NCBI GenBank assembly: GCA_038093975.1
Contig: JBBPTG010000299.1
Span: 1-27,593 of the forward strand
DNA length: 27,593 nt
Direction: 5' to 3'
DNA from: Chalciporus piperatus
Lineage: Eukaryota; Basidiomycota; Agaricomycetes; Boletales; Boletaceae
Positions 8,389 through 26,093 of the stretch are shown here, one piece after another. Under the pieces are notes generated by a model that worked only from the letters and a program-made list of their open reading frames with translations, was not told the origin of the DNA and did not search any database. Made by a program: the position numbers and the translations under genes. Position 1 is the stretch's first letter. Each line of letters begins with the position of its first letter.

Positions 8389-8453
8389 GTGACATGGAAG
8401 AAAAGGAACTGACTGCTGGAAACTCAAACAAATGGATTAGCATCATGTTGCAG

Positions 8454-10414
8454 GCATCACGACGATGAACAACTTGAAGGCATCCCCAAGACAACACCCC
8501 CACCTAGATGATGTTGCTCACCAGTGCCTGAAAGCTCTCAGGCAAACCTTGAACAAACCAGATGCAACATGGATCTCAGAACAGCAAAAGCATGCAGTCC
8601 ACACTGTCATGAAATGTGACACTGACGTGATAGCAATGCTCAAGACTGGTGGTGGCAAATCTATGCTAGCTATCATCCCCACCATAGTGTCACCCAAAAC
8701 AGGGGTCATTGTGGTCCTCCCTCTGAAGTCTCTCATGACTGATTGGAAACGAAAACTGGAGGGCATGCATATCCCCCATCAAGAATACAATCCATCGAAA
8801 GATGGAGGCCGATTGGATTCCAGAATCAACCTGATTCTGGTTTCAGCCGACCGGGCAACTTCCAGTGGATGGCGCCAAGCGATGGCAGAGCTGAATGAAA
8901 AGCTCCCTATCACTCGGATGGTGTTTGATGAAGCACATCTTCCATTGCTATCCGACAACTTCCGCTACTCGCTCGGACGCGTTGATGAATTACGAGCTCA
9001 TAGCATGCAACTCATCCTCCTCAGTGCCACTATACCTCCCTCAAGTGTTCCTGCCTTGAAAACATCGTTCGTATTACTGGAGAATGCCATGGAGATCCGC
9101 GAAAGCAGCAATCGACCGGAACTGGAGTATATTTTGAATCAACAGATTTCATCCAACAAAATCTCGGTAATGGTCTTGAACATTGTATCACGGGAGAGGA
9201 ACAACTGGGACACAAGAGACAGGGGACTTGTCTTTGTGACGTACATTGAAGATGGAAATGCCCTAGCAGAAACAGTAAGTCACTACGCCTTTCTTGATGG
9301 ATATCTTTGCCAATTCAGAGTGTAGACTGGCTGGCCATTCTACAATGGTACAAAATCCGTCACTGACAAAGGGCGACTGGAGATGTACACCAATTGGAGA
9401 AATGGAACCACACCTGTGATGATCTGCACAAGCGCATTCAGTACTGGAAACGACTATCCTCATGTTCGACTCACAATCCATTTCAAGATGCCATTAGAGA
9501 TGAGTGAGCTCATCCAGGCACAGGGACGCGGTGGGCGCGATGGCAGAAATGCTCGATGCTACATCATTCCTGCATTCACCCCCCAGAAGCCAAAAATTGC
9601 AAGGGAAGCCCAGGATCACAAAGGCCAGTGGTATGCACATGACTATGTCTACATCCACGGGACAACGCGATGCCTACGATATGGTGCAACACTATACATC
9701 GATGGAAAGGGACTGGAGTGCAAAGAGGACCTGATGAACATCCACTGCTCCGTCTGCAAATCAAAGTCAGAATTCCGGACGATGAAGACCACCACCCAGG
9801 CACAAAATTCAGACACAGCAAGTGTCACTCATCAAGAATCATCAACATCTCGATTAAAGCGTGGATTCGACCCTGCAATACATTCGCAGAAGGATTCATT
9901 TGCAGTTGCAGCTCAGGTGTCTAAAAAGCAGCGCACAGAGCGAGAGACCAAAACCGCGGAAGAAGCAAATCGGATGCGAAATGCGTTGAACAAGGTCAAA
10001 GACTATGGATGTGGGTTATGTTTTGTGCGGAGGCAGCCGTGCACACGCCACACAATATTTGGCTGTTCTGTTCTACCTCATTTGGGAGGATCTCATGCAC
10101 TAATGGACTGGAAGAAGACACTCCGATATCCACGCCACGGAGCCTGCTGGAAGTGTCATGTTCCATCATGTTCCGACACGCTGCATCCTGAATTTGGGAC
10201 CAAGGATCCATGCGAGTGGGAGGATGTGGTGGTGCCAACATTGTGGGGGATTTGGAAATGTCAGGCCATTCGGGAACAGGCACAACGGATGGTTGGAGTG
10301 GAATGGATGGATATTCAAACATACGCTTCGTGGCTAATGGGGCCTCCATCACCCCCATATCACACCAATGTGATGCAGCTATTTCTCTGGTATGTTGAAA
10401 CGGTAGTTGGATGA
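8454..10414 (+). CDS. RecQ-like SF2 DNA helicase with Cys-rich C-terminus (telomere-linked-helicase type)
   Basis: Exon 8454-9274 is reached through intron 8389-8453 (65 nt, branch CTGAC, TTGCAG). It joins exon 9326-10414 by a 51-nt intron at 9275-9325 that preserves frame across an in-intron stop. Counting from Met 8465, motif I is KTGGGKS (60-66), motif II is VFDEAH (153-158) and motif III is LLSAT (185-189). After the intron, motif V is STGNDYPHVR and motif VI is QAQGRGGRDGR. A RecQ-type zinc site follows (C-x16-C-x8-C-x2-C, around 9670-9760). A basic linker leads to a second Cys/His-rich module (YGCGLCF, CTRH, GCSVL, CWKCHVPSC, 10005-10200). It should unwind DNA 3'-5' using ATP in the nucleus. 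All helicase motifs are intact, unlike the N-terminal part of the locus. Fungal relatives with this layout are often subtelomeric, which fits the flanking minisatellites but is not shown here. Confidence 0.85.
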
Positions 10415-11385: not shown

Positions 11386-13769
11386 ATGAATGAATGAATT
11401 TTATTTGGCTAACTACGCTCATGACATCGTAAAAGGCAGGCGAGGAATAAACATCAAATTAAAGAATGTAAGTGTTCGGGCAAGAAGAAAGCAGAAGGCT
11501 CATGAGGAGACAGAAATTACTTATGGTATCGGAGGTGTGCGTGAACATGAGAGATAATTGGTTGTAGCGAAGGAGGTAAACGATGTAAAATCTTGAGTAT
11601 CCAACGGTAGAGGGCACGAGCGGAATTGGAACGCAAGAGCATGACAGGAGATGTAGTGGGGGAGGAAAGCGCGGATATGAGATTAACGGAAGGGAGGTGA
11701 TGTTGGACACAGACGTAGATGGAGAGGTGGAGGAAAGAGAAAGGAATGCGAGGACAAGGGCGTAGACTTCGGCGTGTAGGATAGAGTTAGAACGAGCTGG
11801 AAGAGGGAGGGTTGCAAGCAATGTAGATGCAGTGGATGCAGTGGCGAAGGTCAGACGACGATGCGTGAAAATATCAGGAGAAGCTGGCAACATTGATCCG
11901 TCGGTGGCGAGAAGAGCCGGCGTAGTAGTGTTAGGCAAAGGCGGTATTGACGACAGAAATTGTAGAGCGTGTATGGCGTTCTCAGCGGCGTTTTGACGGT
12001 CATGTGGCGGGAGAGCCAATTGAGCAGGTGATGTTTGTAGGATATCACCTAGGCGGAGATGTTGAAGCCAATTTTGTACTACAGGCCAATCGTTATAGGA
12101 CGGGGTGAAGCGCATGAGAGCTGGTAGAGTAGGGTGGGTGTGGAAAGGGGAAAGGGAAGGGTAAGGATGAGGGTGCCACGATCCTAGATCCGCCAAAGTA
12201 GAGAGACCTGCTTGTATCTCATGCGAGATTACGCGGGAGGGTAGAGGACGCGGTGCGAGTTTGGAAACATGACGAATTCCAAGTTGCGCTGAAGAGAGAT
12301 AGGACTGATCAGTAGACAGGACAGAAACGTTTACGGTCCGTAGTGCTTCATGTGCGACAATCCAACTGTAAGGCAGTGAACGGCGACAACGGAGGAAGGA
12401 ACAAGAGGAAGTAGATTGCAAAGGATCCTTGCAATCGTTCAACTCACAAGACCAGTCTGCCAGCGTGATTTGCGCCATTGTACGGAATAAGGCGACGTGG
12501 TGTTTAAGGTCACGGAGGAGACCGGTTACGGCAGCGGTGTAGTTTAATCTAGAGATGGAAGTGAAATCGAAGCCCCCAAGGGATAAGGGCACGGTTAAAA
12601 GATGAGTATTAAAATGGAAGGGAAAATGCAGATACTGATGGATACGGGTCGCCAGTTGAACATCCAAGTGATCCGCATCCTTTGGCCGAAGTGGTTGATA
12701 TGCCAATCGTGGGCGTATGCGAGATACGAGAACCTGAGAAATGGTACGGCGAAGGAGGGTGAGTAGTAGACGTGTACGCAAAGGGGGAAAAGTGAAGTTG
12801 AGCATGAGGTTACCACGAAATGGGCTCGTCGTGAACGCGATGGGCGACTTCGCGTACAGTAGCCAGGGTTTTTCAACGGCTTCACGCTCTTGTCGCGTCT
12901 AGAGTTGTTGATAATAGTCAGTGGTCAGTTGTTTAATGTACTGATGCGGTGAACTACGCAGGTCGGTTGGGCCTTCAGGTGAGTGCAGGGCCACGAAATG
13001 GGCTCGTCGTGAACGCGATGGGCGACTTCGCGTACAGTAGCCAGGGTTTTTCAACGGCTTCACGCTCTTGTCGCGTCTAGAGTTGTTGATAATAGTCAGT
13101 GGTCAGTTGTTTAATGTCTTGCGGTGAACTACGCAGGTCGGTTGGGCCTTCAGGTGAGCGCAGTACGATAGGTGGTCCCCAATAGTTTTCTCTAGGGTAG
13201 AGACGCTTTGCAGAACTTCCATGCAACGTTGCGGCTATCCGAGCACGAGAGGATTGAGTGGCTCGACGGCCAAGTTCGTCCTTTTCTGCACGGTAACGAA
13301 GCTTGGCTAAGGACCGTCGTGTTTGGGTGAGGAAGGACACGAAGTCAGCAGGGGGTTGTGTACAAGAGATAAGGGTCGTCTGAAAGGAAGAAAGGTATTG
13401 AGACGCCCAGGGGTAGGTCGAGAGGAGGAATTGGAGTCTTTGGGGGTTTCGCTTGGCCGCGTAAAGAAGCCTTCCAACCCGATGAGTCTCGCAGAGAATG
13501 AGACATATTTGGTGATTTGAGACCTTGCGACCGGTTGGATGACGTGGCTGAGGAAAGTGAAAAGTATCTTTAGCAGCTTCATGCATAACGCCGGTGAGCG
13601 TGTTGTAGACGTGGTCGAATGCTTCGTCATCAGAAGGAGGTGGTGTATCTGTAAGGCCTTGTTCCACGAGGAGCTGATCAACCGTATTGGCAAAACGGCC
13701 GAGTAGTTGCTTTTCCTCCTTCTTCGGAAATAACGCCCGTCATGGAGGGAGGTTTAGGGGATGCTCCGT
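11386..13769 (-). mobile_element. LINE remnant B: RT deleted, RNase H frameshifted
   Basis: Two coding blocks survive. Minus-strand 13667-13077 matches the Lys/Arg-rich linker between endonuclease and reverse transcriptase of basidiomycete LINEs (SLAKLRYRAEKDELGRRA, then a LHGSSAKRLYP-type segment). Minus-strand 12805-11459 encodes the region after the RT thumb and an RNase H start: LLATDGSM with the first Asp and SILHAEVYAL with the Glu. Beyond about 11680 the RNase H continues in another frame (ALYRWILKILHRLPPSL near 11620-11570), so it is frameshifted. The RT palm (YADD-type motif) is absent: the two blocks meet across the tandem duplication at 12813-13162. The 3' end is AAATAAAATTCATTCATTCATTG near 11386-11407, an ATTC-repeat tail. 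The 5' end is missing, because the DNA abuts the poly(A) of LINE A at 13770. Confidence 0.8.
12813..13163. repeat. 178-bp direct tandem duplication in LINE B
   Basis: The sequence starting CCACGAAATGGGCTCGTCG occurs at 12813 and again at 12991, directly adjacent. The copies differ by a 3-base indel (ATGTACTGATGCGG against ATGTCTTGCGG) and a few substitutions near the end, so the duplication is fairly young. It lies exactly where the LINE's reverse transcriptase is missing, so the deletion and duplication may be one rearrangement. Confidence 0.93.
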
Positions 13770-13824
13770 ATTTTTTTTTTTTTTTTTTTTTTTTGAATCC
13801 ATTATTGTCCCGTGTGGGGTAATA

Positions 13825-14508
13825 CTACCCTATGTAGGACAAATCTAATCTAGGTACTAGGGGGCACCCGTGCCCCCACCGCATCCCCGGTTGTGCGGAT
13901 GCCCCGACGAGCGAGACCAAAGTCCCCCCATCGGTCCTGTCGTTCCCGCCGACAGTTTTAGGCGCACCAACCTTCCAATCAGCGGGTGTGCCTATTGTTC
14001 CATGGCGTTTGAGAGCAAGGCTGCTGACGAGAGTTCTAAGAAGCGGTTTGCGTAGTACAACAGTAGTGAACTCCTTCCAGGGATCGTGATAAGTACGCAA
14101 ACGGAATACGGCGCGGAATAAACGTAGCATTTGCGGGACCAGTGTTCCCTGACAACGCTTAAAGACGATGTTTCGGATACCATCTGGTCCCGGTGCCTTC
14201 AGCGCGCTGAGTTTGGATATGCATCTTTCAATTTGTTCGCCCGTGATCGGTATTGCATCTGAGACAGCGTCGGGGTATAGGAAATCATCGGGTACAGTGG
14301 AGACTGCGGGGGGTGGGGGGAAGAACGCTTTGGCTAGTATTGAGCTTTTCTCCTCGTTCGTCTCCGCTGAGATGGGAGCGCCGTGCTGATCTTTGGCTTT
14401 GAGGGTGGGAATACGGGATGGGCCTCCGTCGCTGGGCTCCGAGTTGAGGTACTTGTTCGCGATCCATATCTCGTCGCTGTTCATGTTGTCCAGCCAGTCC
14501 AGCCAATG
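13825..14508 (-). pseudogene. LINE A reverse transcriptase N-terminus joined to 3' end
   Basis: Continues the endonuclease frame after one stop codon. It contains the RT entry motif SKLSALKAPGPDGIRN and the TVVLRKP segment of RT motif 1. It then jumps into a short C-terminal/3' UTR-like stretch rich in Gly that has no RT motifs. Motifs 2-7, including the catalytic Asp pair, are missing, so this copy cannot reverse-transcribe. Confidence 0.75.
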
Positions 14509-15591
14509 TTATTTTTTGGTGCGTTTTATTGCTTCTTCATAGCGGTTGCGTGCGATCCGATGCCCCTCGTGGGATGGATGGTCTTCCAAGGCTCGCATCT
14601 TATATGATAGGGCAGCTAGCCGCAATACTTCCTTCCTCATTTCCGTGAGATCGCGATTCCACCATCGCTTTGAGTGGGGACTTGGTTTCGAGAATGGGAC
14701 ATGTAGCTGGATGGCGTTTTGGATAGCCGCAGTGATGCCTTTCGCTGCAGCTTGAAAGTCATCCTCAGTGGTGATCGGAGTATCAGTGGGGTACACAGCT
14801 AGGTCTCTCTGTAGCGTGGTATTGAACTTCTTCCAGTCTACGTCGTTGAAGTTTCTGGTCTCGGGTGGTTTGGCATGGGCGGTGGGCATGTCTAGTACTG
14901 TGAGGATGGGGACGTGGTCGGTGCGAGCTCCTCTTGCCCTTGGTTCCGTGTAGCATTGAGTGATGAGCTCTGTCGCCGAGTCTGATCCGAAGACATTGTC
15001 GGGCCTTGTCCAGTTTTTGGTCGCTAGCGCCTGAAGAGTGGGTACGCCCTTTGGGAGAAATGGTATCATTCCGTATTCAGCTAGCAGCATGATAAGGGGT
15101 TGGGCGGCGTCGAGGTATCGAGGGGTGAGTAGATGCGAGTTTCGGTCATCCTCCCATAATGGGTGGTGGCGGTTAAAATCGCCTATCCACAGCATGTGGT
15201 CGTCGTCTGTCCTGCGGACGTTTTGGATGTTCTCCTCTAGATATTTCTGCAGTGCGTCTAGCGATTGGTCATGATTGCAGTCATTGTAAATGTTAAAGAT
15301 TACGCAGCTTCCGTGAGTCCCCTTCACGCGGATGGCCACCACATCCGGTGAGGGGAACGGCACTTGTGTCCACGCATTGGTGTCCAGTTCCGTGGATACT
15401 AACGTGGCTGCACGGTAGTGTAAGTTACTCGTTGTGTAGCGTGGTGTAGGGTAGAGAACGTGGAATTTTCGATTAGAAGTGGTGTCCCCCCAGGAATTGA
15501 TATGGGGTTCCTGGAGCGCTAGTATATCCCAATCCTTGGGCGACGTGGTATTAAGTAGGGCATGTTGAGTAGTTAGGGATGTGTTCAGCAT
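14509..15591 (-). pseudogene. LINE A endonuclease domain (EEP/APE family)
   Basis: Exonuclease-endonuclease-phosphatase domain that would nick target DNA for target-primed reverse transcription. Numbered from 15591, the visible catalytic motifs are LALQEP (E28), WIGDFNRHHPLW (D138, N140, H142), a RPDNVF substrate-loop motif near residue 196 and ARTDHVPIL (D225, H226). All key residues are present except the first-strand Asn motif at the truncated N-terminus. The frame ends at TAA 14509-14511, after which homologous sequence (HWLDWLDNMNSDEIW) continues in the same frame. The stop is therefore a single nonsense mutation. Confidence 0.85.
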
Positions 15592-15599
15592 CAGGAAAA

Positions 15600-15800
15600 G
15601 GTCGGGTCTCTGTCAGACACTGCCCCGACTGTGGGGAACTGCCAGGCAGTCCAGGAACTGTATACAGGCAGCGACAGCAAATCAGCCACAGTGAAATAGT
15701 TATAATTTTTGTGTTGAGATCGAGAATCGAACACACGACAGCCACACTTAACAAAAATATACAACGCACACAGTAACCGCTACGCTAGAGAGTTGCTCAG
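15600..15800 (-). mobile_element. Possible tRNA-derived SINE at the LINE A 5' junction
   Basis: On the minus strand an A-box TAGCGTAGCGG (15787-15777), matching TRGYNNANNNG, is followed 45 nt later by a B-box-like GTTCGATTC (15732-15724). This is the spacing of an RNA polymerase III internal promoter. The stems of a functional tRNA cannot be folded. The downstream body (15720-15600) has the palindromic stretch ACTGCC..GGCAGT and ends directly at the truncated LINE A. A second copy elsewhere would be needed to be sure. Confidence 0.4.
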
Positions 15801-16598: not shown

Positions 16599-16825
16599 AC
16601 GCAATCTAGCTTGGTCTTTCCTCGTTTCCTTTGAACCTTCTGAGAGTCACCGTCTGTTACGAACGCTTCATTCCTTATCCTAATCACCCCTACATTCCAT
16701 TACGCTTACTAGGTTTCTCTTCGTTTCTTGGACTTAGTCGTTTCATTTTCCCTTTTGTTATCTTATCTTATCGTGTCACGTGACTTACTTACATAAGCTA
16801 GGTCTAGACCTTCGCTTACTACTGA

Positions 16826-16937
16826 TGACTCACCACTCACTCGTCAGCATCAGTCAGCATTACTCATCATATGACTCACGCTTACTCATTCCGCAGTAGA
16901 GCTAGTTACGCCATTGGCTAGTAGTCAGTATGAGTCA
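16826..16937 (+). promoter_or_regulatory. Cluster of bZIP (Gcn4/AP-1-like) sites in element 1 U3
   Basis: Three perfect TGA(C/G)TCA 7-mers within 112 bases, 56-167 bases upstream of TATA. Such sites bind Gcn4/Atf1-type bZIP factors in fungi, which suggests stress- or starvation-driven transcription. This is inferred from motif only. Confidence 0.45.
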
Positions 16938-16992
16938 TACCCAGTCACCTACGATAAGGTTTAGTCACAACATGTACAAACATTGACAATAG

Positions 16993-17000
16993 TATATAAA
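16993..17000 (+). promoter_or_regulatory. TATA box of element 1 LTR
   Basis: TATATAAA lies 35 bases upstream of AGTCTTGTTCT (17028-17038), the segment complementary to the PBS. The spacing makes 17028 the likely RNA start. Confidence 0.75.
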
Positions 17001-17027
17001 CCCGGGTCGACAAGCACTGGACTCCCC

Positions 17028-17038
17028 AGTCTTGTTCT
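17028..17038 (+). other. Element 1 self-primer segment (predicted RNA 5' end)
   Basis: AGTCTTGTTCT is an exact 11-nt reverse complement of AGAACAAGACT at 17132-17142, and the match does not extend at either end. Eleven nt is the length used by Tf1 self-priming. Confidence 0.75.
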
Positions 17039-17131
17039 CCTGGAGTTTCCTCATCGAACCTCAGCCAAGTTCATCGGCTCGCTATTGTCTAGTGTGAGTC
17101 TTAGCTCTTAGTTGAGTTGAGTCGTTTCATT

Positions 17132-17142
17132 AGAACAAGACT
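17132..17142 (+). other. Element 1 primer-binding site
   Basis: AGAACAAGACT begins two bases after the LTR end (CA 17128-17129). It pairs with the element's own predicted RNA 5' end, so minus-strand DNA synthesis is probably self-primed rather than started from a tRNA. Confidence 0.75.
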
Positions 17143-17214
17143 AATATTTTCTTTTGTCTTAGCGTCTCGTCGCTACCACACGTGTCTTGTACGCCACTTC
17201 ATCGTTGATCACTA

Positions 17215-17271
17215 GTGGGTACCGCGCTGCTTGTTCGCGCCTTGTCATCGCTGACCTTGTTTTTGAATAAG
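17215..17271 (+). other. Predicted leader intron that would assemble an ATG
   Basis: Donor GTGGGT at 17215, branch-like GCTGAC, a T-rich tract and acceptor AATAAG ending at 17271 give a 57-nt intron of typical size. The exon before ends in A (17214) and the exon after starts TG TCG AGC, so splicing would create ATG at the head of the upstream ORF, which otherwise has none. A longer alternative donor at 17092 (CTA|GTGTGA) gives the same junction. Confidence 0.5.
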
Positions 17272-18528
17272 TGTCGAGCAACCCCGCCGCATCTCAGCGC
17301 GCCGTGTCCCCGGTCCCTTCCATCCAGTGGAACGGGATACTTGATCTCCCCGCCGTCGAGAACAACCTCGACTTCGCTAGCGTCATCAGAAACCTCGAAC
17401 GAGCTGTAGAGGTCGTCCCCGGCTTCACCAGCATCATCGACGATCTCGAGCGAGAGAACGCTCGTATCCAGGAAGAATACGCTCGTACTCAGGCGTTACA
17501 CGCTGAAAGACAAAGGGAGACTATTGAGAAGTACTCAACGCCGATAGTCCCAGAGCCAGACTATTCGGATCTCTACGTTGATTGGTTGGAACCTCCGGTA
17601 ATTCCCTCTTACCCATACCACCTTCCATCTGAGGTTTACATTCACCCTCTCGGTACCCTTCGGTTACCTCATCATCCCGCCAATCTTCAGATCGGTACTC
17701 GTCGACTTCCGTCGCTCCCTCCCATCGAGACTATTCGGGCACCGTTGCCGCCCAACCCCCAGCAAATACTAGCCGACGCCTTCGGCGTTGAAGAATTATT
17801 CTATCGTGCCTCCTCCATTCCCAGAGCCCCAACCCCGCTCGCGGAGCCCGTTGATTGGACCACCGTCGACGAGGATATTCTTGCTCTTCAACACAGATTC
17901 CCCCTTGGAGTCTCTGGTCGTACGCAAAGTTTCCGTAGCGCTATCTATCACACGCTTATATCACCGGCAGGAGAGAAGGCGATTCGAGAGAACATTGACG
18001 ATCGGGTACGTCAACGCCGACGAAGCGACAGGCTACTTAGAGGTATCCCAGAGGACGCCGGTATTCGTATTAAGGAGAGAGTACCAACCCCGCGTCCTAC
18101 TCGCCGCACTCGCCGCCATAAGCCTCTTGTACCCCTTAGGAAGATTCGCCCAGTACAGCTTACAGGCCTTCCTATTTCTTTCATACCTCATCTTCGGCCA
18201 CGAAATTCTCTCAAGCGACCGTCGCGTTACCTTTGACTTTGCCTATATTCTCGTATCTCACAGGATTCGCCCAGTAGCACCACCTACTCCTCCCCTTTCT
18301 CCTGTTGTATCACAAGCAGAGTTAGAAGAGGACAGTGAATCGGTACCAGGATTAGTAGAATCAGATAGTGAAGACGAAGGAGGACTAAGAGAGACAAACG
18401 CACCAGGAGTGCAACTGTACTATCCCGCGCCTCATTCCATCAGAAGAAGTATTCCACCGCCACCTTATCAAAGAGACGCCCCTGCTTCGTTATCAGGAGA
18501 AACCCTTGAAGGATCTCAGGAGATCTGA
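17272..18528 (+). CDS. Upstream accessory ORF (ORF0): predicted membrane protein with PPPY motif
   Basis: No known family. The open frame 17271-18236 has no Met codon, and its start would be formed by splicing of 17215-17271. A second GT..AG pair at 18006-18051 (46 nt; GTACGT..CCCAG) joins it to the frame that stays open to the stop at 18526-18528, giving about 403 residues. The N-terminal half is Pro-rich with a charged coiled-coil-like helix (residues about 60-85). After the second junction come one or two hydrophobic segments (VLLAALAAISLLYPLG, then SLQAFLFLSYLIFG). The rest is an acidic Pro/Ser-rich tail containing IPPPPYQ at 18451-18471, a PPxY motif of the kind bound by WW-domain (Nedd4/Rsp5) ubiquitin ligases. 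Between 17788 and 18236 two frames are open, so +1 frameshifting instead of the second intron cannot be excluded. It may act at membranes, but the function is unknown. Confidence 0.5.
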
Positions 18529-18540
18529 AATAAAAACCTA

Positions 18541-18561
18541 GTTTTATTCCTTCCATTCTAG
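18541..18561 (+). promoter_or_regulatory. Possible alternative splice acceptor just before gag
   Basis: A T/C-rich tract ending CCATTCTAG lies 10 bases before the gag ATG. Used with a leader donor it would remove the whole upstream ORF and give a short-leader gag mRNA. There is no evidence it is used. Confidence 0.25.
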
Positions 18562-18571
18562 TGCATCAAGA

Positions 18572-19774
18572 ATGTCGGTTCTCGCCCCAGACTTAGCAGC
18601 TGCCCTAACAGGCATTCTCGGACATCGTGACGCGTCCATACGGGATCTTGGAACGCAGTTGAGACTCGCGTTAGAAACCATGACGGATCAGCTTACCAAC
18701 GCTCAGAGAGTAAATCAAAATCTAAACAATAATGTCTTGCAGCTTGAAGCGCAAGTACAAGCCATTCAAGTGCCTGGTGCAATACCAGCTCCTACGGTCG
18801 GACCTAGCGGACCTAAGCTATCCAAAATCATCAAAGATCCAGGAGATTATGACGGATCTAGAGGAAGGAAGTTCGAAGAATGGTGGACAAGAGTCCGTGC
18901 ATGGATAGACGAAAACAACACCGTGTTAACCGGAATGACGGCGATCAGAGCTATCCTTAGTCGAATGACAGGAGGAGATGCCGCAACTTTCTCACGAGCC
19001 ATGACACATGACATCTTGGAGAATGGAACCACGTATACTTCCGCCGAGTTCCATAAACGAATCACCGATCAATTCCGCTCGGGTAACGAAGTGGAATATC
19101 ACCGCAATCAGATCAAGAATCTGAAACAAGGCAAAATGTCTATGGAGAAATTCCTTACCACGTTCCAGACTCATCGACTTATGGACGATTGGAACGATGC
19201 GCGACACATCGAACTTCTAGAGCTAAACGCAGATCCAGAGATCACACATCGGATTTTAATGGAGAAGGGACGGATCGACAAATATGACACATACGTCGAA
19301 GAGTTACGCCTCCTTGCAGGAAGGAAACAGCTTATCTCCATGATCAAGACAGGAACCGCAGGTGATACCCCGCGATATAAATATACCAACACGGGCACAC
19401 AACCGGGTCGTGGTGCCCCAATGGATATAGGTTCTGCCGAAATCGAAGAAGGAGAAATCGTGGAAGAAGAAGAAGAAACACCATCTGCCGTAAAAGCAAC
19501 CACAAGCAATTTCAAAGAGAAGAAACAAGGAAATTGTTGGAACTGTGGGAAACCGGGACATCCGAAACAGCAATGTTCGGTGCCTAGTACCAAATGCAAG
19601 GGCTGTGGCTGGTCACGAGGCGAACACAAACGTGCCTGCAAACTTCAGAAGAGACAGGTGAGAGAACTGTCTACCGAATCTAACCCTCTTGAAGGCCGTT
19701 CATTCGACGAAATGAAGGCTTACTTCTACGATATGAAAGATATCGAAATGAAGGGAAAAGGCAAAGCGGCCTGA
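18572..19774 (+). CDS. gag: Element 1 Gag
   Basis: 400-residue nucleocapsid precursor starting at the first ATG after the predicted RNA start. Residues 30-60 form a Gln/Asn-rich coiled coil. About 85-240 is the retrotransposon gag fold (EEWWTRVRAWIDENN, RSGNEVEYHRNQIKNLKQG). An acidic stretch EIEEGEIVEEEEE follows, then a CCHC knuckle CWNCGKPGHPKQQC (from residue 322) and a second CKGCGW...HKRAC cluster. A Lys-rich end includes the frameshift site at 19753-19759. It would assemble virus-like particles in the cytoplasm and bind element RNA. Confidence 0.93.
   Translation: MSVLAPDLAAALTGILGHRDASIRDLGTQLRLALETMTDQLTNAQRVNQNLNNNVLQLEAQVQAIQVPGAIPAPTVGPSGPKLSKIIKDPGDYDGSRGRKFEEWWTRVRAWIDENNTVLTGMTAIRAILSRMTGGDAATFSRAMTHDILENGTTYTSAEFHKRITDQFRSGNEVEYHRNQIKNLKQGKMSMEKFLTTFQTHRLMDDWNDARHIELLELNADPEITHRILMEKGRIDKYDTYVEELRLLAGRKQLISMIKTGTAGDTPRYKYTNTGTQPGRGAPMDIGSAEIEEGEIVEEEEETPSAVKATTSNFKEKKQGNCWNCGKPGHPKQQCSVPSTKCKGCGWSRGEHKRACKLQKRQVRELSTESNPLEGRSFDEMKAYFYDMKDIEMKGKGKAA
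19753..19759 (+). promoter_or_regulatory. -1 ribosomal frameshift site (GGGAAAA) of element 1
   Basis: In gag phase the bases read G GGA AAA, a canonical X XXY YYZ heptamer, five codons before the gag stop. The pol frame is -1 relative to gag and has been open since 19693, so a slip here gives Gag-Pol. No ATG occurs in the pol frame before the protease, so independent initiation is unlikely. A downstream pseudoknot was not searched for. Confidence 0.65.
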
Positions 19775-22700
19775 ATGATCTGGGCAAACGGACCGCAACT
19801 AACTCGTTAGGAAAATCTGTAAACTATTCACACAGTCAAACGGGGTCTCATGTTGAACATGAGCTTGGCCTGGACTCTAGTCAGGTGCTTAATTCCGTTT
19901 CCATAATCCGATATCTTTCCGAAAACCCAGGACCACGTTTCATTCGCACGACGGATCGAGAATTGAAGCTATCCACTTCCATTGCCTCGCAACGCCTCCC
20001 GTCTGCTTTCACACGAGCAGACGCACTTCTTGATTCAGGAGCTAACGCCATCTTCGTTGATCGGAGATGGGCTGATAAAATCAAATTACCCCTCGTGCAA
20101 CTCAGACATCCACTTACGGTATACAACGTGGACGGAACGCATAACTCCGCTGGACAGATAACACACTGTGCAGAAATCATTATCCATTTCAACGGACATC
20201 GTGAGAAGGCCATTGCAGAAGTCACTGATCTCGGAAAGAATCAGGTGATACTGGGATACGCATGGCTGAAGCAACACAATCCAGAGATAGATTGGAACAA
20301 AGGAACGGTCCACATGACACGTTGTCCTTGGTCTTGTTCCGTTTTACGAGATAAACCGCCGTTCGCACGTCAACTTGATGATGAAGAACGAAACTCTCTT
20401 CGTCACATCAACGCCGCAAAGAAGGATGTACCGGAACCAAAAACGGAAAAGACTCCGGAAGAACTTGTTCCAAAAGAATATCACAAGTATATTCACCTGT
20501 TCAAGAAAAAGGAATCTGAACGCATGCCAACCCGTAAGCCGTGGGATCATGCAATTGACTTAAAAGACACCTACAAGCCGAAAAAGGGTCGTCTTATCCC
20601 ACTATCTGTCACGGAACAAGAAGAAGTCAGCGCATTCATTGATGACCAGCTCAAGAAAGGATACATTCGTCCTTCCAAATCTGAGCAGACTTCTCCCGTG
20701 TTCTTCGTTCCTAAGAAGGATGGCAAGAAGCGCATGGTTCAAGATTACCGCTATCTGAATGAACACACGGTGAAAAACAATTATCCGTTACCCCTCATTT
20801 CCCAATTGGTTGATAAACTGAAAGGCGCAAAATTATTTACCAAAATGGACTTGCGCTGGGGATACAACAACATCCGCATCAAAGAAGGCGATGAATCTAA
20901 AGCCGCATTCGTGTGCTTCCGTGGCGCCTTCGAACCCTTGGTCATGTACTTCGGATTATGCAATTCTCCTGCGACATTTCAAACCATGATGAACGACATC
21001 TTCTCGGATATGGAAGACGCCGTTGTTGTCTACATTGATGACATCATGATCTTTACCAAATCCGACGATCCTGCTGTCCATACCAAGATAGTCAGAGAAG
21101 TTCTTCGTCGCCTAGAGGAGAATGACCTCTTCGTCAAACCAGAGAAATGTGTCTTCCATACCAAAGAAGTAGAATTCTTGGGAATGACAATTACCCCCGA
21201 AGGAATCAGGATGGATGACGATAAGGTCAAGGCAATCACCGAATGGCCAACTCCGACAAATGTCAGAGGTGTCAGAAGCTTCCTGGGGTTAGCAAACTTC
21301 TATCGCCGCTTCATTCAGGACTACGCTCAAGTGGCTAGACCCTTGAATGACCTTACCAAGAAGGATACGAAATTCGCATGGGAAGATGCGCAGAAGAACG
21401 CCTTCAACACGCTGAAACAGAAGTTCATCACCGCCCCCATACTCGCTTTCCCAGACAATGACAAACGCTTCCGTCTAGAATCGGATGCATCTAATTATGC
21501 CACGGGTGCTGTTCTATCTATAGAACAAGGAGACAAATGGCATCCCGTCGCGTTCTCTTCCCACTCCATGTCACCGGAAGAACGCAACTATCCCATCGCG
21601 GATAAAGAGATGCTAAGCGTTATCAGAAGTCTAGAACAATGGAGACATTATCTGGAAGGTTCCAAGCACGAGTTTGAAATCTGGAATGATCACGCGAACC
21701 TTCAGTTCTTCATGACTCGGCAAGATCTAAATCGTCGCCAAGCACGTTGGTCTCAATATCTTAGTCGATTCAATTTCAAATGGTTACACAAGGCAGGTTC
21801 TCAAATGGGAAAAGCCGATGCCTTATCAAGAAGAGAAGATCACGCAATCGGTATCGAAGCAGATAACAAAGCTGTCCTTGTAATACCTCCGGACAGAATA
21901 GCTGCCACGTCAACTGTTCAACTCTCAACCGATTCCGATCTGATCAAGAACAAAATCAGAAAAGCAACCTTCAAAATACGTGAAACAGAAGTCATGAAAC
22001 TCTGTAAGGAACACGGCATTTGTGAAGAGTCTGATGGAATTCTGATTGACAAGAAAGGAAGACTATACGTTCCTGAAGAAGAAGATCTCCGCATGGAGAT
22101 TATTCGACTTCATCACGACACACCCCTTGCTGGGCATCCCGGATATGAGAAGACAATTGAACTGCTACAGCGCAGTTATGCCTGGCCAGGAATGGCTACG
22201 CTCGTAAAAGACTACGTCTCACGCTGTGACAGATGTGCACGCTTCAAAGGGATAAACTATGCTCCTTCTGGAAAGCTCCGCCCCCTTGAAGTTCCGGATC
22301 TTCCCTGGGAACATATCTCTGCAGATTTCACTACCGACCTGCCACTCTCGAATGGATTCGATTCTATTCTTGTCGTCGTTGACAGATTCTCCAAAGAAGT
22401 CGAATTCATTCCCTGCAATAAGACGGTCACCGCTCTCGACACCGCCCGTCTTTACCTAACCCATGTATGGAAACATCATGGACTTCCTAAAACCATCATA
22501 TCGGATCGAGGTCCGCAATTCGCATCTCAAGTGATGAAAGACATATGCAAACGTCTTGGCATTACGCCCAAACTCTCCACCGCCTTTCATCCCCAAACTG
22601 ATGGACAAACTGAACGTATGAATCGAGATCTACAACAGTATCTCCGTCTATTCACGTCAGAAAAACAAGAAGAATGGACTGATTGGTTGCCAATTGCGCA

Positions 22701-23487
22701 ATTCTCATACAACTCAAAGAAACAAGCTTCTACATCCAAGGCACCTTTCAACGTCACGCACACATATTCTCCAAGAATGGGAATAGAGAATTACACGTCT
22801 AAAGCACCCGCTGCTACAGACTTTGTTGACACGCTTGCCAACACGTTGAAAGAAACCAAGGATAACATAATAGAAGCTCAGAAACGTATGAAGGCACAAG
22901 CTGACAAACACCGTTCTGAATCGCCATCTTACGAGATTGGTCAGAAAGTCTGGTTATCTACAGCTAATCTCCGCCTGGCGCAGAGATCTAAGAAACTTTC
23001 TCCACGATGGCTGGGCCCTTACGAAATCACAACCCTGATTGGACGGAACGCACTACGTCTGAAGCTTCCGCGTACCATGAAAATACACCCCGTCATTAAT
23101 GTTTCACGTGTCAAACCATATAAGGACAGGTTACGGAAGCAAACCGTTGACAAGCCTGGGCCTGTGATTGTGACAGAAGACAGAGATGATGAATATGAGG
23201 TGGACTATATCGTTGATTCTCGTTTACAGGGAAAAACCCTGAAATACCTCGTGCACTGGAAAGGTTATGCGGAATCTGATCGAACATGGGAGCCAAGATC
23301 GAATCTCAAGAATGCACAGGATGCAATAAGGGAATTCAACAAGATACATCCGTCCGCTCCACGATTCCTTCGCATGTCACGGAGTCTGTTCGAGTCACTG
23401 TTCCAGCCGTATGACAACTTAACGAGTCAGGTGGATGATGGACAAATCAATTGGCTGAATACCGTGCCGGATACCGAAAAGGTATAA
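19759..23487 (+). CDS. pol: Element 1 Pol: protease, RT, RNase H, integrase, chromodomain
   Basis: One uninterrupted frame entered by -1 frameshift from gag. Counting from 19885, the aspartic protease has LLDSGAN (D50). RT has the palm motif YIDD at 383-386 (21031). RNase H starts LESDASNYATGAV near 531. The integrase zinc finger starts at HH 743-744 and closes with CDRC. The core DDE is D814 (ADFT), D874 (SDRGPQFAS) and E910 (QTERMNR), 35 residues between the last two. The GPY/F-like segment RWLGPYEI follows. A chromodomain lies at about 1103-1155 (DYIVDSRLQG, YLVHWKGY, TWEPRSNL) and classes it as a chromovirus likely to target modified histone. All catalytic residues are intact. It would act in particles in the cytoplasm and, for integrase, the nucleus. 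Confidence 0.95.
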   Translation, partial: RQSGLNDLGKRTATNSLGKSVNYSHSQTGSHVEHELGLDSSQVLNSVSIIRYLSENPGPRFIRTTDRELKLSTSIASQRLPSAFTRADALLDSGANAIFVDRRWADKIKLPLVQLRHPLTVYNVDGTHNSAGQITHCAEIIIHFNGHREKAIAEVTDLGKNQVILGYAWLKQHNPEIDWNKGTVHMTRCPWSCSVLRDKPPFARQLDDEERNSLRHINAAKKDVPEPKTEKTPEELVPKEYHKYIHLFKKKESERMPTRKPWDHAIDLKDTYKPKKGRLIPLSVTEQEEVSAFIDDQLKKGYIRPSKSEQTSPVFFVPKKDGKKRMVQDYRYLNEHTVKNNYPLPLISQLVDKLKGAKLFTKMDLRWGYNNIRIKEGDESKAAFVCFRGAFEPLVMYFGLCNSPATFQTMMNDIFSDMEDAVVVYIDDIMIFTKSDDPAVHTKIVREVLRRLEENDLFVKPEKCVFHTKEVEFLGMTITPEGIRMDDDKVKAITEWPTPTNVRGVRSFLGLANFYRRFIQDYAQVARPLNDLTKKDTKFAWEDAQKNAFNTLKQKFITAPILAFPDNDKRFRLESDASNYATGAVLSIEQGDKWHPVAFSSHSMSPEERNYPIADKEMLSVIRSLEQWRHYLEGSKHEFEIWNDHANLQFFMTRQDLNRRQARWSQYLSRFNFKWLHKAGSQMGKADALSRREDHAIGIEADNKAVLVIPPDRIAATSTVQLSTDSDLIKNKIRKATFKIRETEVMKLCKEHGICEESDGILIDKKGRLYVPEEEDLRMEIIRLHHDTPLAGHPGYEKTIELLQRSYAWPGMATLVKDYVSRCDRCARFKGINYAPSGKLRPLEVPDLPWEHISADFTTDLPLSNGFDSILVVVDRFSKEVEFIPCNKTVTALDTARLYLTHVWKHHGLPKTIISDRGPQFASQVMKDICKRLGITPKLSTAFHPQTDGQTERMNRDLQQYLRLFTSEKQEEWTDWLPIAQFSYNSKKQASTSKAPFNVTHTYSPRMGIENYTSKAPAATDFVDTLANTLKETKDNIIEAQKRMKAQADKHRSESPSYEIGQKVWLSTANLRLAQRSKKLSPRWLGPYEITTLIGRNALRLKLPRTMKIHPVINVSRVKPYKDRLRKQTVDKPGPVIVTEDRDDEYEVDYIVDSRLQGKTLKYLVHWKGYAESDRTWEPRSNLKNAQDAIREFNKIHPSAPRFLRMSRSLFESLFQPYDNLTSQVDDGQINWLNTVPDTEKV

Positions 23488-23550
23488 GAGACTGATGTTT
23501 GACGGTCTTCACTCTCACGGTCTCTCTTCCACAAACCACCATCATCACCA

Positions 23551-24117
23551 ATGGATCTCAACGACGCCTACGCTTGGGAAAGTGTCCTCCGCGACATTTT
23601 CATTCGAAACTTCACTCGGGATCGAGGCAACTTCGTCCTCTCCCTCCTCTTTGTACTTTTCATCATCTGCAACGGTTGGATTCTCCGCATGCTCATCCCC
23701 TCCCTCCTCGCCTTCATCACCATCATCATCGTCACTATCGCCATTCAATACCTGATGTTCGCGCGGATGATCGTAACTAGACGGTCCACGTCTATCGAAG
23801 TTAACTGGGATTGGACGACAAAGTGGATGAAACTCGTCGTGTGGCACCCCGATTTGAGCAAATGGGACAACGTGGTGGAGGTACAGCAAGAGAATCCTGA
23901 TCAACAGGAATGGCCCACAAATTGGCCAGATCTCGCTCAACCTCCTATTCCCGACCCTGCACTCGTAGGTGCTCCCCACCCTATTCCTGTCGATGAAAAC
24001 GATGGTAACCCATTTGAGCCACCAGTAACCTGGACGAACAATAATCTTCAGGTCGCTGCTGCTCCACCAGCAGATGGAGTACCGTGGATGAATCAAGGTC
24101 CACTCATCGAAATCTGA
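23551..24117 (+). CDS. 3' accessory ORF of element 1: membrane protein
   Basis: 188 residues from ATG 23551, 63 bases after the pol stop, in the place where envelope-like genes sit in some gypsy elements. Two hydrophobic segments (about 28-43 and 48-72; FVLSLLFVLFIICNGW and an Ile-rich helix) are separated by a short basic turn. They are followed by a 110-residue Trp/Pro-rich, acidic domain (DWTTKWMKLVVWHPDLSKW) with no glycosylation-rich ectodomain, furin site or coiled coil. It therefore does not look like a fusion protein. No family recognised. The frame is intact, which in so young an element is weak evidence of use. Confidence 0.7.
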   Translation: MDLNDAYAWESVLRDIFIRNFTRDRGNFVLSLLFVLFIICNGWILRMLIPSLLAFITIIIVTIAIQYLMFARMIVTRRSTSIEVNWDWTTKWMKLVVWHPDLSKWDNVVEVQQENPDQQEWPTNWPDLAQPPIPDPALVGAPHPIPVDENDGNPFEPPVTWTNNNLQVAAAPPADGVPWMNQGPLIEI

Positions 24118-24151: not shown

Positions 24152-24626
24152 TGTTACGAACGCTTCATTCCTTATCCTAATCACCCCTACATTCCATTAC
24201 GCTTACTAGGTTTCTCTTCGTTTCTTGGACTTAGTCGTTTCACTTTCCCTTTTGTTATCTTATCTTATCGTGTCACGTGACTTACTTACATAAGCTAGGT
24301 CTAGACCTTCGCTTACTACTGATGACTCACCACTCACTCGTCAGCATCAGTCAGCATTACTCATCATATGACTCACGCTTACTCATTCCGCAGTAGAGCT
24401 AGTTACGCCATTGGCTAGTAGTCAGTATGAGTCATACCCAGTCACCTACGATAAGGTTTAGTCACAACATGTACAAACATTGACAATAGTATATAAACCC
24501 GGGTCGACAAGCACTGGACTCCCCAGTCTTGTTCTCCTGGAGTTTCCTCATCGAACCTCAGCCAAGTTCATCGGCTCGCTATTGTCTAGTGTGAGTCTTA
24601 GCTCTTAGTTGAGTTGAGTCGTTTCA
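24152..24626 (+). repeat. Element 1 3' LTR
   Basis: Same length as the 5' LTR with one substitution seen by eye. It is followed at once by CCGTC, the second copy of the target duplication, and then by the rest of element 2's LTR. Confidence 0.95.
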
Positions 24627-24631
24627 CCGTC

Positions 24632-24791: not shown

Positions 24792-26093
24792 ACCTCCACC
24801 ATTTCCCAACGACCTCGCCTCGACACCTCTCGCTGGGGCCCCCCACGAGAGACCGCTAATCCACAGAACCCCGAATCTTCTGACTCGGGCTCACCTGAAG
24901 AGGAAGATCCCTCTAACCCCTACGACACCTCGGATCTTTACGACGAACCAATCACCACCCAAGAGGAACAAGAAGAAACCCTTCACCTCTCCCACGAATT
25001 TTCCTCAGCTGTAACCATCCCAAGGTCACCAACACCACCGTCGCCAACCCCAATATCCCGAAGAGCTCCACAGTTCCCTGTGTCGCCTGCTCCCCCACGA
25101 ACCCTAGCTTTCCCCACTCCTTCCCTTCCCGCACCCGCATTTGCACCAGGAGCGTATCAGGTACCCCCTACCTTTGTAAACCCCATGTCGTCCTCCAAAC
25201 CCACTGAACTCCGCATCGGAGCCCCAGACGCCTTTGATGGCTCCTTTGAAAAGAGCACTGCTTGGATGAATTCTATCCAATTCTATCTCACTGTCAATGG
25301 TGACGTATACAACACCGACCCCAAGAAGATCGCCTTTGCGCTGTCTTACATGTCCAAAGGATCAGCAGCCACTTGGGCCGCCACCTTCCGCCGCAAAGCC
25401 ATCACCGGCGCCACAGTCACAATGGGAACCTGGGCTCAGTTTATCACTGATTTCGAAACCGCATTCAAACATCACGACACCGTAGGAAACGCCGTCGCCT
25501 GGCTCTCCACCAAGCGAATGAAACCTCTCAAGAATGGAGAGCATTCTCCCTCCCTCCCAGAATTCATTTCAAGTTTCCAGAATCAAGTCGCCTTATCAGG
25601 CATCACCGATAACAATGTCCTAATCGGATACTTTTCCGCAGGGATACCCGTCTCCCTCATGAGACGAGTCAACAGCATGGACACTGTCCCTACCACGATG
25701 GAGGATTGGTACAAACGCACTACCCAGTTCCAGACCCAATGGGAACACGCCAATGAAATCGCAAATCGCAATCGCAACCCTGCTAAGCCATTTCGTCCAT
25801 TCTCCTCCACCAACCACTCTACCCCTGCCCGGGACCCCAATGCCATGGACGTCGACGTCATCCGTATCTCCAAACTCACTCCTGAAGAGCGGAAACACTG
25901 CCAGGAGAAAGGGCTCTGCTTCCGCTGCAGGAAAGCTGGACATCGGTCCAACGCCTGCCCAGAATTCTCCTCGAACCAGAAAACCCCGAAGAAGGTTCAG
26001 AAGGTTGAGGAAGAAATTCCCTCGCTGATCGAGATAGATGATGAGGATGAAACCACCGTTCGTAAAGTAGCCTTTGTCACAAAGGGTTTTTAG
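24792..26093 (+). CDS. gag: Element 2 Gag, with ATG-less N-terminal open extension
   Basis: The first ATG after the predicted RNA start is 25185 and gives a 302-residue Gag. It holds a gag fold from about ELRIGAPDAFDG to EHANEIANRN, an AMDVD linker and a single CCHC knuckle CFRCRKAGHRSNAC near 25918-25959, then an acidic tail ending at TAG 26091-26093. The same frame is open upstream to a stop at 24789-24791. It encodes a protein-like Pro/Ser- and acid-rich segment (SSDSGSPEEEDPSNPYDT) without any Met, similar in composition to the N-termini of other basidiomycete gypsy Gags. That extension may need splicing or a non-AUG start. The conservative start is 25185. Confidence 0.82.
   Translation, partial: TSTISQRPRLDTSRWGPPRETANPQNPESSDSGSPEEEDPSNPYDTSDLYDEPITTQEEQEETLHLSHEFSSAVTIPRSPTPPSPTPISRRAPQFPVSPAPPRTLAFPTPSLPAPAFAPGAYQVPPTFVNPMSSSKPTELRIGAPDAFDGSFEKSTAWMNSIQFYLTVNGDVYNTDPKKIAFALSYMSKGSAATWAATFRRKAITGATVTMGTWAQFITDFETAFKHHDTVGNAVAWLSTKRMKPLKNGEHSPSLPEFISSFQNQVALSGITDNNVLIGYFSAGIPVSLMRRVNSMDTVPTTMEDWYKRTTQFQTQWEHANEIANRNRNPAKPFRPFSSTNHSTPARDPNAMDVDVIRISKLTPEERKHCQEKGLCFRCRKAGHRSNACPEFSSNQKTPKKVQKVEEEIPSLIEIDDEDETTVRKVAFVTKGF
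26084..26090 (+). promoter_or_regulatory. -1 ribosomal frameshift site (GGGTTTT) of element 2
   Basis: G GGT TTT in gag phase lies directly before the gag TAG. The pol frame (-1) opens at 26066 after a stop at 26063. Same class of X XXY YYZ heptamer and same geometry as element 1. Confidence 0.65.

Follow-up and report, generated by a model that had tools for sequence, protein, structure and literature searches.

The window, i.e., the whole stretch of 27,593 nt of Chalciporus piperatus DNA that was analysed (contig JBBPTG010000299.1), contains a recent LTR retrotransposon whose two LTRs differ at 1 of 475 positions and which has the five bases CCGTC on both flanks (Table 1). The pol frame displays the domains RVT_1, RT_RNaseH, rve and Chromo in that order, each above the Pfam cut-off. 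Reverse transcriptase, RNase H, integrase and a chromodomain in pol thus identify the element as a Ty3/gypsy LTR retrotransposon of the chromodomain type (chromovirus). The gag frame matches Retrotrans_gag with an E value of 2e-4, which is under Pfam's cut-off, and for the open frame downstream of pol no Pfam family above the cut-off was found. A tblastn search with pol against plasmids gave solely matches of less than 60% identity, which were judged irrelevant. Other open frames are found in the same window. One at 24792-26093, just past the 3′ LTR, has a gag-like zinc knuckle (CFRCRKAGHRSNAC) and probably belongs to another retroelement; those at 11459-15612 on the - strand resemble, by eye only, a non-LTR retrotransposon with endonuclease and reverse transcriptase, and neighbouring frames at 8441-10414 look like a RecQ-type helicase, also by eye only.

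Table 1. Features of the retrotransposon in the window, with the observations on which each assignment is based
Feature	Position	Strand	Basis
Target-site duplication CCGTC, left copy	16650..16654	+	Identical five bases follow the 3′ LTR
5′ LTR, 475 nt, TG...CA	16655..17129	+	474/475 identical to 24152-24626
TATA box TATATAAA	16993..17000	+	Read from sequence; spacing equal in family 2
Predicted RNA 5′ end (R start) AGTCTTGTTCT, complementary to primer binding site	17028..17038	+	Exact reverse complement of 17132-17142
Possible intron 1, GTGAGT...TCTTAG, 69 nt	17094..17162	+	Spans LTR end and primer binding site
Primer binding site AGAACAAGACT, self-priming type	17132..17142	+	Identical in 56/56 copies
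Non-coding leader exon, ends ..CACTA	17163..17214	+	Many copies have 1-nt indels at 17184 and 17200
Predicted intron 2, GTGGGT...CTGAC...AATAAG; removal would create A/TG	17215..17271	+	Signals invariant
Putative branch point CTGAC	17251..17255	+	56/56 copies; CTGAC also in L090
ORF a, pre-gag protein, ~321 aa, no internal Met	17272..18236	+	Codon-position pattern; multiple-of-three indels; tblastn in own genome
ORF b, 251 codons, no Met, other frame, overlaps a	17773..18528	+	Third-position pattern; conserved bounding stops
gag, first AUG of unspliced RNA, A at -3	18572..19774	+	ATG in 50/50 copies reaching that point
pol: protease, RT, RNase H, integrase, chromodomain	19693..23487	+	81 nt overlap with gag frame
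Hydrophobic ORF downstream of pol, 204 codons from stop to stop	23503..24117	+	Open frame
3′ LTR	24152..24626	+	Matches 5′ LTR, 474/475
Target-site duplication CCGTC, right copy	24627..24631	+	Pairs with left copy

The start of the element RNA can be inferred with good reason at 17028. The TATA box begins 35 nt upstream of this position, in the window copy all 11 bases of the presumed RNA 5′ end pair with the primer binding site (PBS), and four ATGs of U3 lie just upstream, the last of them at 16972. Among 56 aligned copies from the same genome the R start is exact in 54. The complementarity between R and the PBS predicts a self-priming, Tf1-like layout.

Between this predicted start and the gag start codon, from 17028 to 18571, no ATG is found in any of the three + strand frames, as had been reported in the initial annotation of the sequence, and of the 64 triplets ATG alone is missing from this stretch. 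The ATG-free run extends from 16972 to 18572 and is the longest in the window with both strands considered; it begins after the last U3 ATG, 56 nt before the RNA start predicted here, and ends at gag. The number of ATGs expected by chance had been put at about 24, which is too high: dinucleotide-preserving shuffles of the stretch give 10.6 +/- 2.7, with a minimum of 3 in 2000 shuffles. The open frame of more than 300 codons without Met, described at the same time, was recovered at 17271-18236 (321 codons). When synonymous codons of the window copy were shuffled with the Met-less proteins kept, frame a gave a strong signal (mean of 4.2 ATGs, zero in 0.2% of shuffles) and frame b a weak one (mean of 1.9, zero in 7.6%).

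A search of the genome gave 42 matching places, and tblastn with frame a gave 86 matches in the same genome, from which 39 regions and then 28 more were fetched for comparison. The resulting alignment of the family to which the window element belongs (family 1) has 56 sequences; 51 of these include both ends of the leader, and 48 that are not decayed were used for a test of sequence variants. The leader is free of ATG in 39 of the 51 complete copies. The expectation that related copies would also lack ATG in this interval holds for the most part. ATGs are present in 12 of the 51, but 16 of the 30 ATGs in total are in L062 and L065, which are the most divergent and are decayed, and among non-decayed copies a single ATG is shared.

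The number of ATG gains to be expected in the 48 non-decayed copies was computed from the substitution spectrum that this leader shows. ATG-creating variants present in at least one copy number 11, against 24.7 expected, which is the second lowest value among triplets, TAA being lower. Of variants common to at least two copies there is 1 against 15.3 expected, and of those common to at least three there are 0 against 12.1, each the lowest of all 64 triplets. Since gains are seen singly and nearly none are shared, ATGs do arise in the leader but do not persist. Elsewhere in the same copies the number of ATGs is normal, with mostly four to seven in U3 and mostly eight or nine in the first 429 nt of gag. 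Selection against ATG, of a kind that would let ribosomes scan to gag as initially proposed, is well supported by these dozens of copies together with the second family described below, and in both families the depletion starts near the predicted RNA start.

The one ATG common to more than one non-decayed copy, at 17806, is a real exception. It has an A at -3, is in frame b, and is found in L012, L013 and L035, which have differing flanks; in L035 the leader is incomplete towards gag, so that this copy is outside the 51 complete leaders. The presence of this ATG at three different genomic sites shows that a single ATG did not block new inserts, which in this lineage were perhaps made in trans.

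The substitution pattern of the leader shows that frames a and b are both under constraint at the protein level. From 17271 to 17772, where frame a is alone, third positions have 1.95 changes per site and first and second positions 0.56 and 0.47, and from 18237 to 18525 the third positions of frame b have 2.05 against 0.42 and 0.31; gag displays the same kind of third-position pattern. In the overlap, a pattern like that of frame b, with lower rates, is seen from about 17850 to 18110, and constraint on frame a returns around 18110-18180. Over the ~460 nt of 17773-18236 both frames are conserved, with b most constrained at about 17990-18110. The stops before and after b and the stop that ends a are conserved in 48 of 48 copies, and indels within the frames keep to multiples of three, the broken copies L025, L063 and L065 excepted. 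One-base indels are common before 17214 and again after 18526. Thus the change from one-base indels to multiples of three places the beginning of coding near 17272, at the 3′ end of the predicted intron. Frame-b-like coding in 17164-17270 was considered and rejected, since the pattern stems from a few hot columns inside the intron and one-base indels are present there.

A Pfam search with a and b gave no family at E 0.1. As read from the sequence, frame a has an arginine-rich stretch and frame b has a hydrophobic stretch and an acidic tail; AlphaFold models made without an alignment have a mean pLDDT of 50.8 for a and 43.0 for b and are uninformative. Frame b could be entered by splicing from a, by frameshifting, or at a near-cognate codon, with the GTG at 17806 as one candidate. 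Conserved GT and AG sites that could form an a-to-b intron were listed, and no pair was prominent. A shifty-looking CTTTGAC is found at the end of a, where the preceding codon specifies L in 41 and I in 7 of the 48 copies; frameshifting at this site was set aside because constraint on b sets in well upstream and because the codon before the stop varies.

Frame a is probably switched on by removal of a GT-AG intron that assembles its AUG. The predicted junction, ..CACTA/TGTCG.. (the slash marks the joined ends), gives an ATG in frame with the 321 codons of ORF a, and the predicted spliced start, ATG TCG AGC AAC, is that of MSSNPAASQRAVSPVPSIQW. Donor, branch point and acceptor sequences (AGTGGGT, CTGAC and AGTG) are invariant in 56 of 56 aligned family-1 copies, as are the A that ends the preceding exon and the A at -3 of the resulting AUG. 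The intron is 57 nt long in 54 copies, 56 nt in one and 58 nt in one. A search of the genome for a family-1 copy that exactly lacks intron 2 found none. The coding region upstream of gag had been proposed to be kept silent on the genomic RNA. It seems to be more than silent, as its start appears to be assembled by splicing, and there are two overlapping conserved frames and not one.

A second family was recovered from the same genome with a gag search, which gave 29 places with 48-56% identity over at least 190 residues. Nineteen of these were fetched, plus L090 (54% over nearly the whole gag), and 16 could be aligned. The gag of family 2 is ~50% identical to that of family 1. Each of the 16 displays a TATA box, the R start AGCTTAGTTCA and the PBS TGAACTAAGCT, with self-complementarity between R and PBS, and the leader is 977-1034 nt long, with 1028 nt as the figure for the family. 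There is no ATG in 12 of the 16 leaders; L084 has three, L089 and L094 have one each, and the one in L086 is the splice junction itself. L083, L085 and L091, which are rearranged or broken and are outside the alignment, have ATGs near gag.

The sequence CGCAA/GTGCGT...TAG/TGTACTT is present in 15 of the 16 family-2 copies, with an intron of 50 nt in L076, and its predicted removal gives an ATG in frame with a pre-gag ORF of 258 codons, which is conserved and in which changes favour third positions (88 of 258, with 38 of 257 and 30 of 258 at the other two). A comparison of this ORF with frames a and b found no convincing similarity. Family 2 has the same A/GT...AG/TG design built with a different intron and a different ORF. 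The exception is the sixteenth copy, L086. It lacks exactly the 50-nt GT...AG segment and begins MYFPSF with a genomic ATG, while elsewhere its leader is 99.2% identical to that of L076. Reverse transcription of a spliced RNA would be the simplest source of this copy; a genome search for a second intron-less copy of this kind found none. In the single copy L090, A/GTAGGT...CTGAC...CAG/TG delimits a putative intron of 53 nt, and the predicted N-terminus, MSAPYSYLADASRAPSPVPSV, is recognisable next to the MSSNPAASQRAVSPVPSIQW of the window element. L090 is degenerate past the first 50 or so codons and has many ATGs further on. At the sequence level, a splice-made in-frame AUG is therefore predicted for 56 of 56 family-1 copies, for 15 of 16 in family 2 (the sixteenth being intron-less) and for L090.

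Upstream of the leader exon, the donor and acceptor hexamers of possible intron 1 are invariant in 56 of 56 copies, and splicing at these sites would take the PBS out of the mRNA. Comparable signals are found in L090, with none obvious in family 2, and on this account even odds are given to this intron. An exact match to the junction expected in family 1 after excision of intron 1 was searched for in the genome and none was found. The sequence GTCTAGTCGTCTCGTCACCA, with two mismatches to the family-1 pattern, occurs in 29 places. One locus with this appearance, L098, was not counted as an intron-1-spliced copy, as it is a non-coding relative of L068 and L069 that has no family-1 first exon. 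L098, L068 and L069 represent non-coding relatives present in many copies (one 20-mer occurs exactly in 29 places). They retain the region of intron 2 and some of the first 27 residues of frame a, and the long pre-gag frame is absent where they were read; in L068 and L069 a different open frame, also hydrophobic, lies between positions 2435 and 3539 of the locus. At the other end of the leader, a pyrimidine-rich tract that ends in TAG just before gag (18542-18561) resembles a 3′ splice site and is found in family 1 only. Some gag mRNA could be spliced at this tract.

The reading preferred here, with a probability of about 0.83, is that the leader has a dual use, i.e., that it is an AUG-free path for scanning to gag in unspliced RNA and that spliced RNA yields a pre-gag protein from a splice-made AUG. 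With no AUG from the cap to gag, ribosomes scanning the unspliced RNA would reach the gag AUG 1.54 kb downstream. Internal Met codons would be barred from frames a and b, where they would act as start sites on this RNA and trap the scanning ribosomes, which would account for the Met-less proteins. The initiator AUG of frame a would not be contiguous in the DNA but would be formed when removal of the 57-nt intron joins A to TG. On spliced RNA, ribosomes would meet the assembled AUG first and translation would move from gag to the pre-gag protein. Several observations count against this model. The intron-less L086 is one copy and belongs to family 2 only, ATGs are present in 12 of 51 family-1 leaders and in 3 of 16 family-2 leaders apart from L086, and ATGs confined to single copies do arise (11 gains against 24.7 expected with variants of a single copy counted too). 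The ATG shared at 17806 and the tract before gag that resembles a 3′ splice site are further points on this side.

The pre-gag frame might instead be translated from unspliced RNA through a near-cognate start, with most ribosomes leaking on to gag, in the manner of ORF I of rice tungro bacilliform virus (RTBV), which starts at AUU. An AUG-less ORF followed by an AUG that is reached by scanning is the same kind of arrangement (PMC5902531). Frame a opens with GTG at 17271, and in frame b the GTG at 17806 has an A at -3 and is an ATG in one lineage. However, position -3 of the GTG at 17271 is not a purine, and this GTG overlaps the invariant acceptor; moreover three lineages, each with its own intron, have A/GT and AG/TG, and in L086 the junction is present in the DNA. 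A near-cognate start is thus improbable as a general explanation, and for frame b it could still hold. Quite improbable is also that a spliced mRNA without most of the leader is the source of gag, with TAG at 18561 as acceptor and, e.g., GTGAGT at 17094 as donor, and that the absence of ATG reflects something else. The tract TTTTATTCCTTCCATTCTAG does precede gag, with its AG invariant in 50 of 50 copies and with C/T exchanges within it, but a spliced gag mRNA gives no reason for the loss of ATG over 1.5 kb, and in family 2 ATG is lost likewise, though the sequence before gag holds no such tract.

Base or codon composition, or chance, is a very remote explanation for the missing ATG and is already disfavoured by the data. 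The leader is C-rich (30%), and zero ATG is a result that the synonymous shuffles of frame b, in one copy, do reach. Dinucleotide shuffles on the other hand never fell below 3 ATGs, gains of ATG are depleted across copies, the U3 and gag of these copies are not depleted, and the loss is repeated in the independent family 2.

The dual-use leader could be part of a wider arrangement, which is put forward as a tentative and rather doubtful extension. A single splicing decision would sort the RNA. With introns kept, it would be an AUG-free, PBS-bearing genome that also serves for gag; with introns removed, it would have the pre-gag AUG and, with the PBS deleted together with intron 1, would be an mRNA that can no longer be copied. 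The arginine-rich pre-gag protein and the membrane-like frame b may feed back on splicing, export or packaging, in a retrovirus-like logic. The sole intron-less copy, L086, is in family 2, which is without obvious intron-1 signals; this fits RNA sorting of this kind, as a single case.

Splice-made start codons are known singly. The initiator AUG of EBNA-LP of Epstein-Barr virus is reportedly made by a splice junction, and the likeness is that the start codon exists only after splicing; this virus is unrelated, and no AUG-free scanning leader is known to be shared there with a capsid gene. Self-priming elements of the Tf1/sushi type have in common with the window element a chromodomain integrase and an RNA 5′ end complementary to the PBS. 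Tf1, which reportedly has this self-priming layout, is said to have a single ORF, whereas the window element has in addition a pre-gag coding region, with a start predicted to come from splicing, and a further ORF downstream of pol. In badnaviruses and RTBV, ORFs I and II are free of internal AUG and ribosomes scan ~900 nt to ORF III (PMC5902531). Long upstream ORFs are thus kept free of internal AUG for the sake of a downstream AUG there as well (PMC5902531), but in RTBV the start of ORF I is an AUU of the same RNA, and shunting plays a part. In the window element the upstream AUG is predicted to be assembled by splicing, the element is a fungal-type LTR retrotransposon, and the distance is 1.5 kb. 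In BARE, splicing of a small intron gives a gag-only RNA, so that here too a small alternative intron sets the protein made from the RNA of an LTR element (PMC3735527); the BARE intron is at the end of gag and alters a stop, not a start. Human L1 SpIREs are, like L086, integrated copies of spliced element RNA (PMC5860796), but L1 is a non-LTR element and is harmed by splicing, whereas the intron is conserved here.

A literature search, in which subscription journals were thinly covered, found no retrotransposon described with both an AUG-free leader and a splice-made start. With AUG-free scanning known from plant pararetroviruses, and splice-made starts known one at a time, the combination of the two in one leader would make a binary switch, and the same 1.5 kb would be a leader or a gene depending on one small intron. 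This would explain the presence of conserved Met-less frames before gag and why gene finders miss them, and it would show a route by which an LTR retrotransposon can gain accessory proteins with gag left unblocked.
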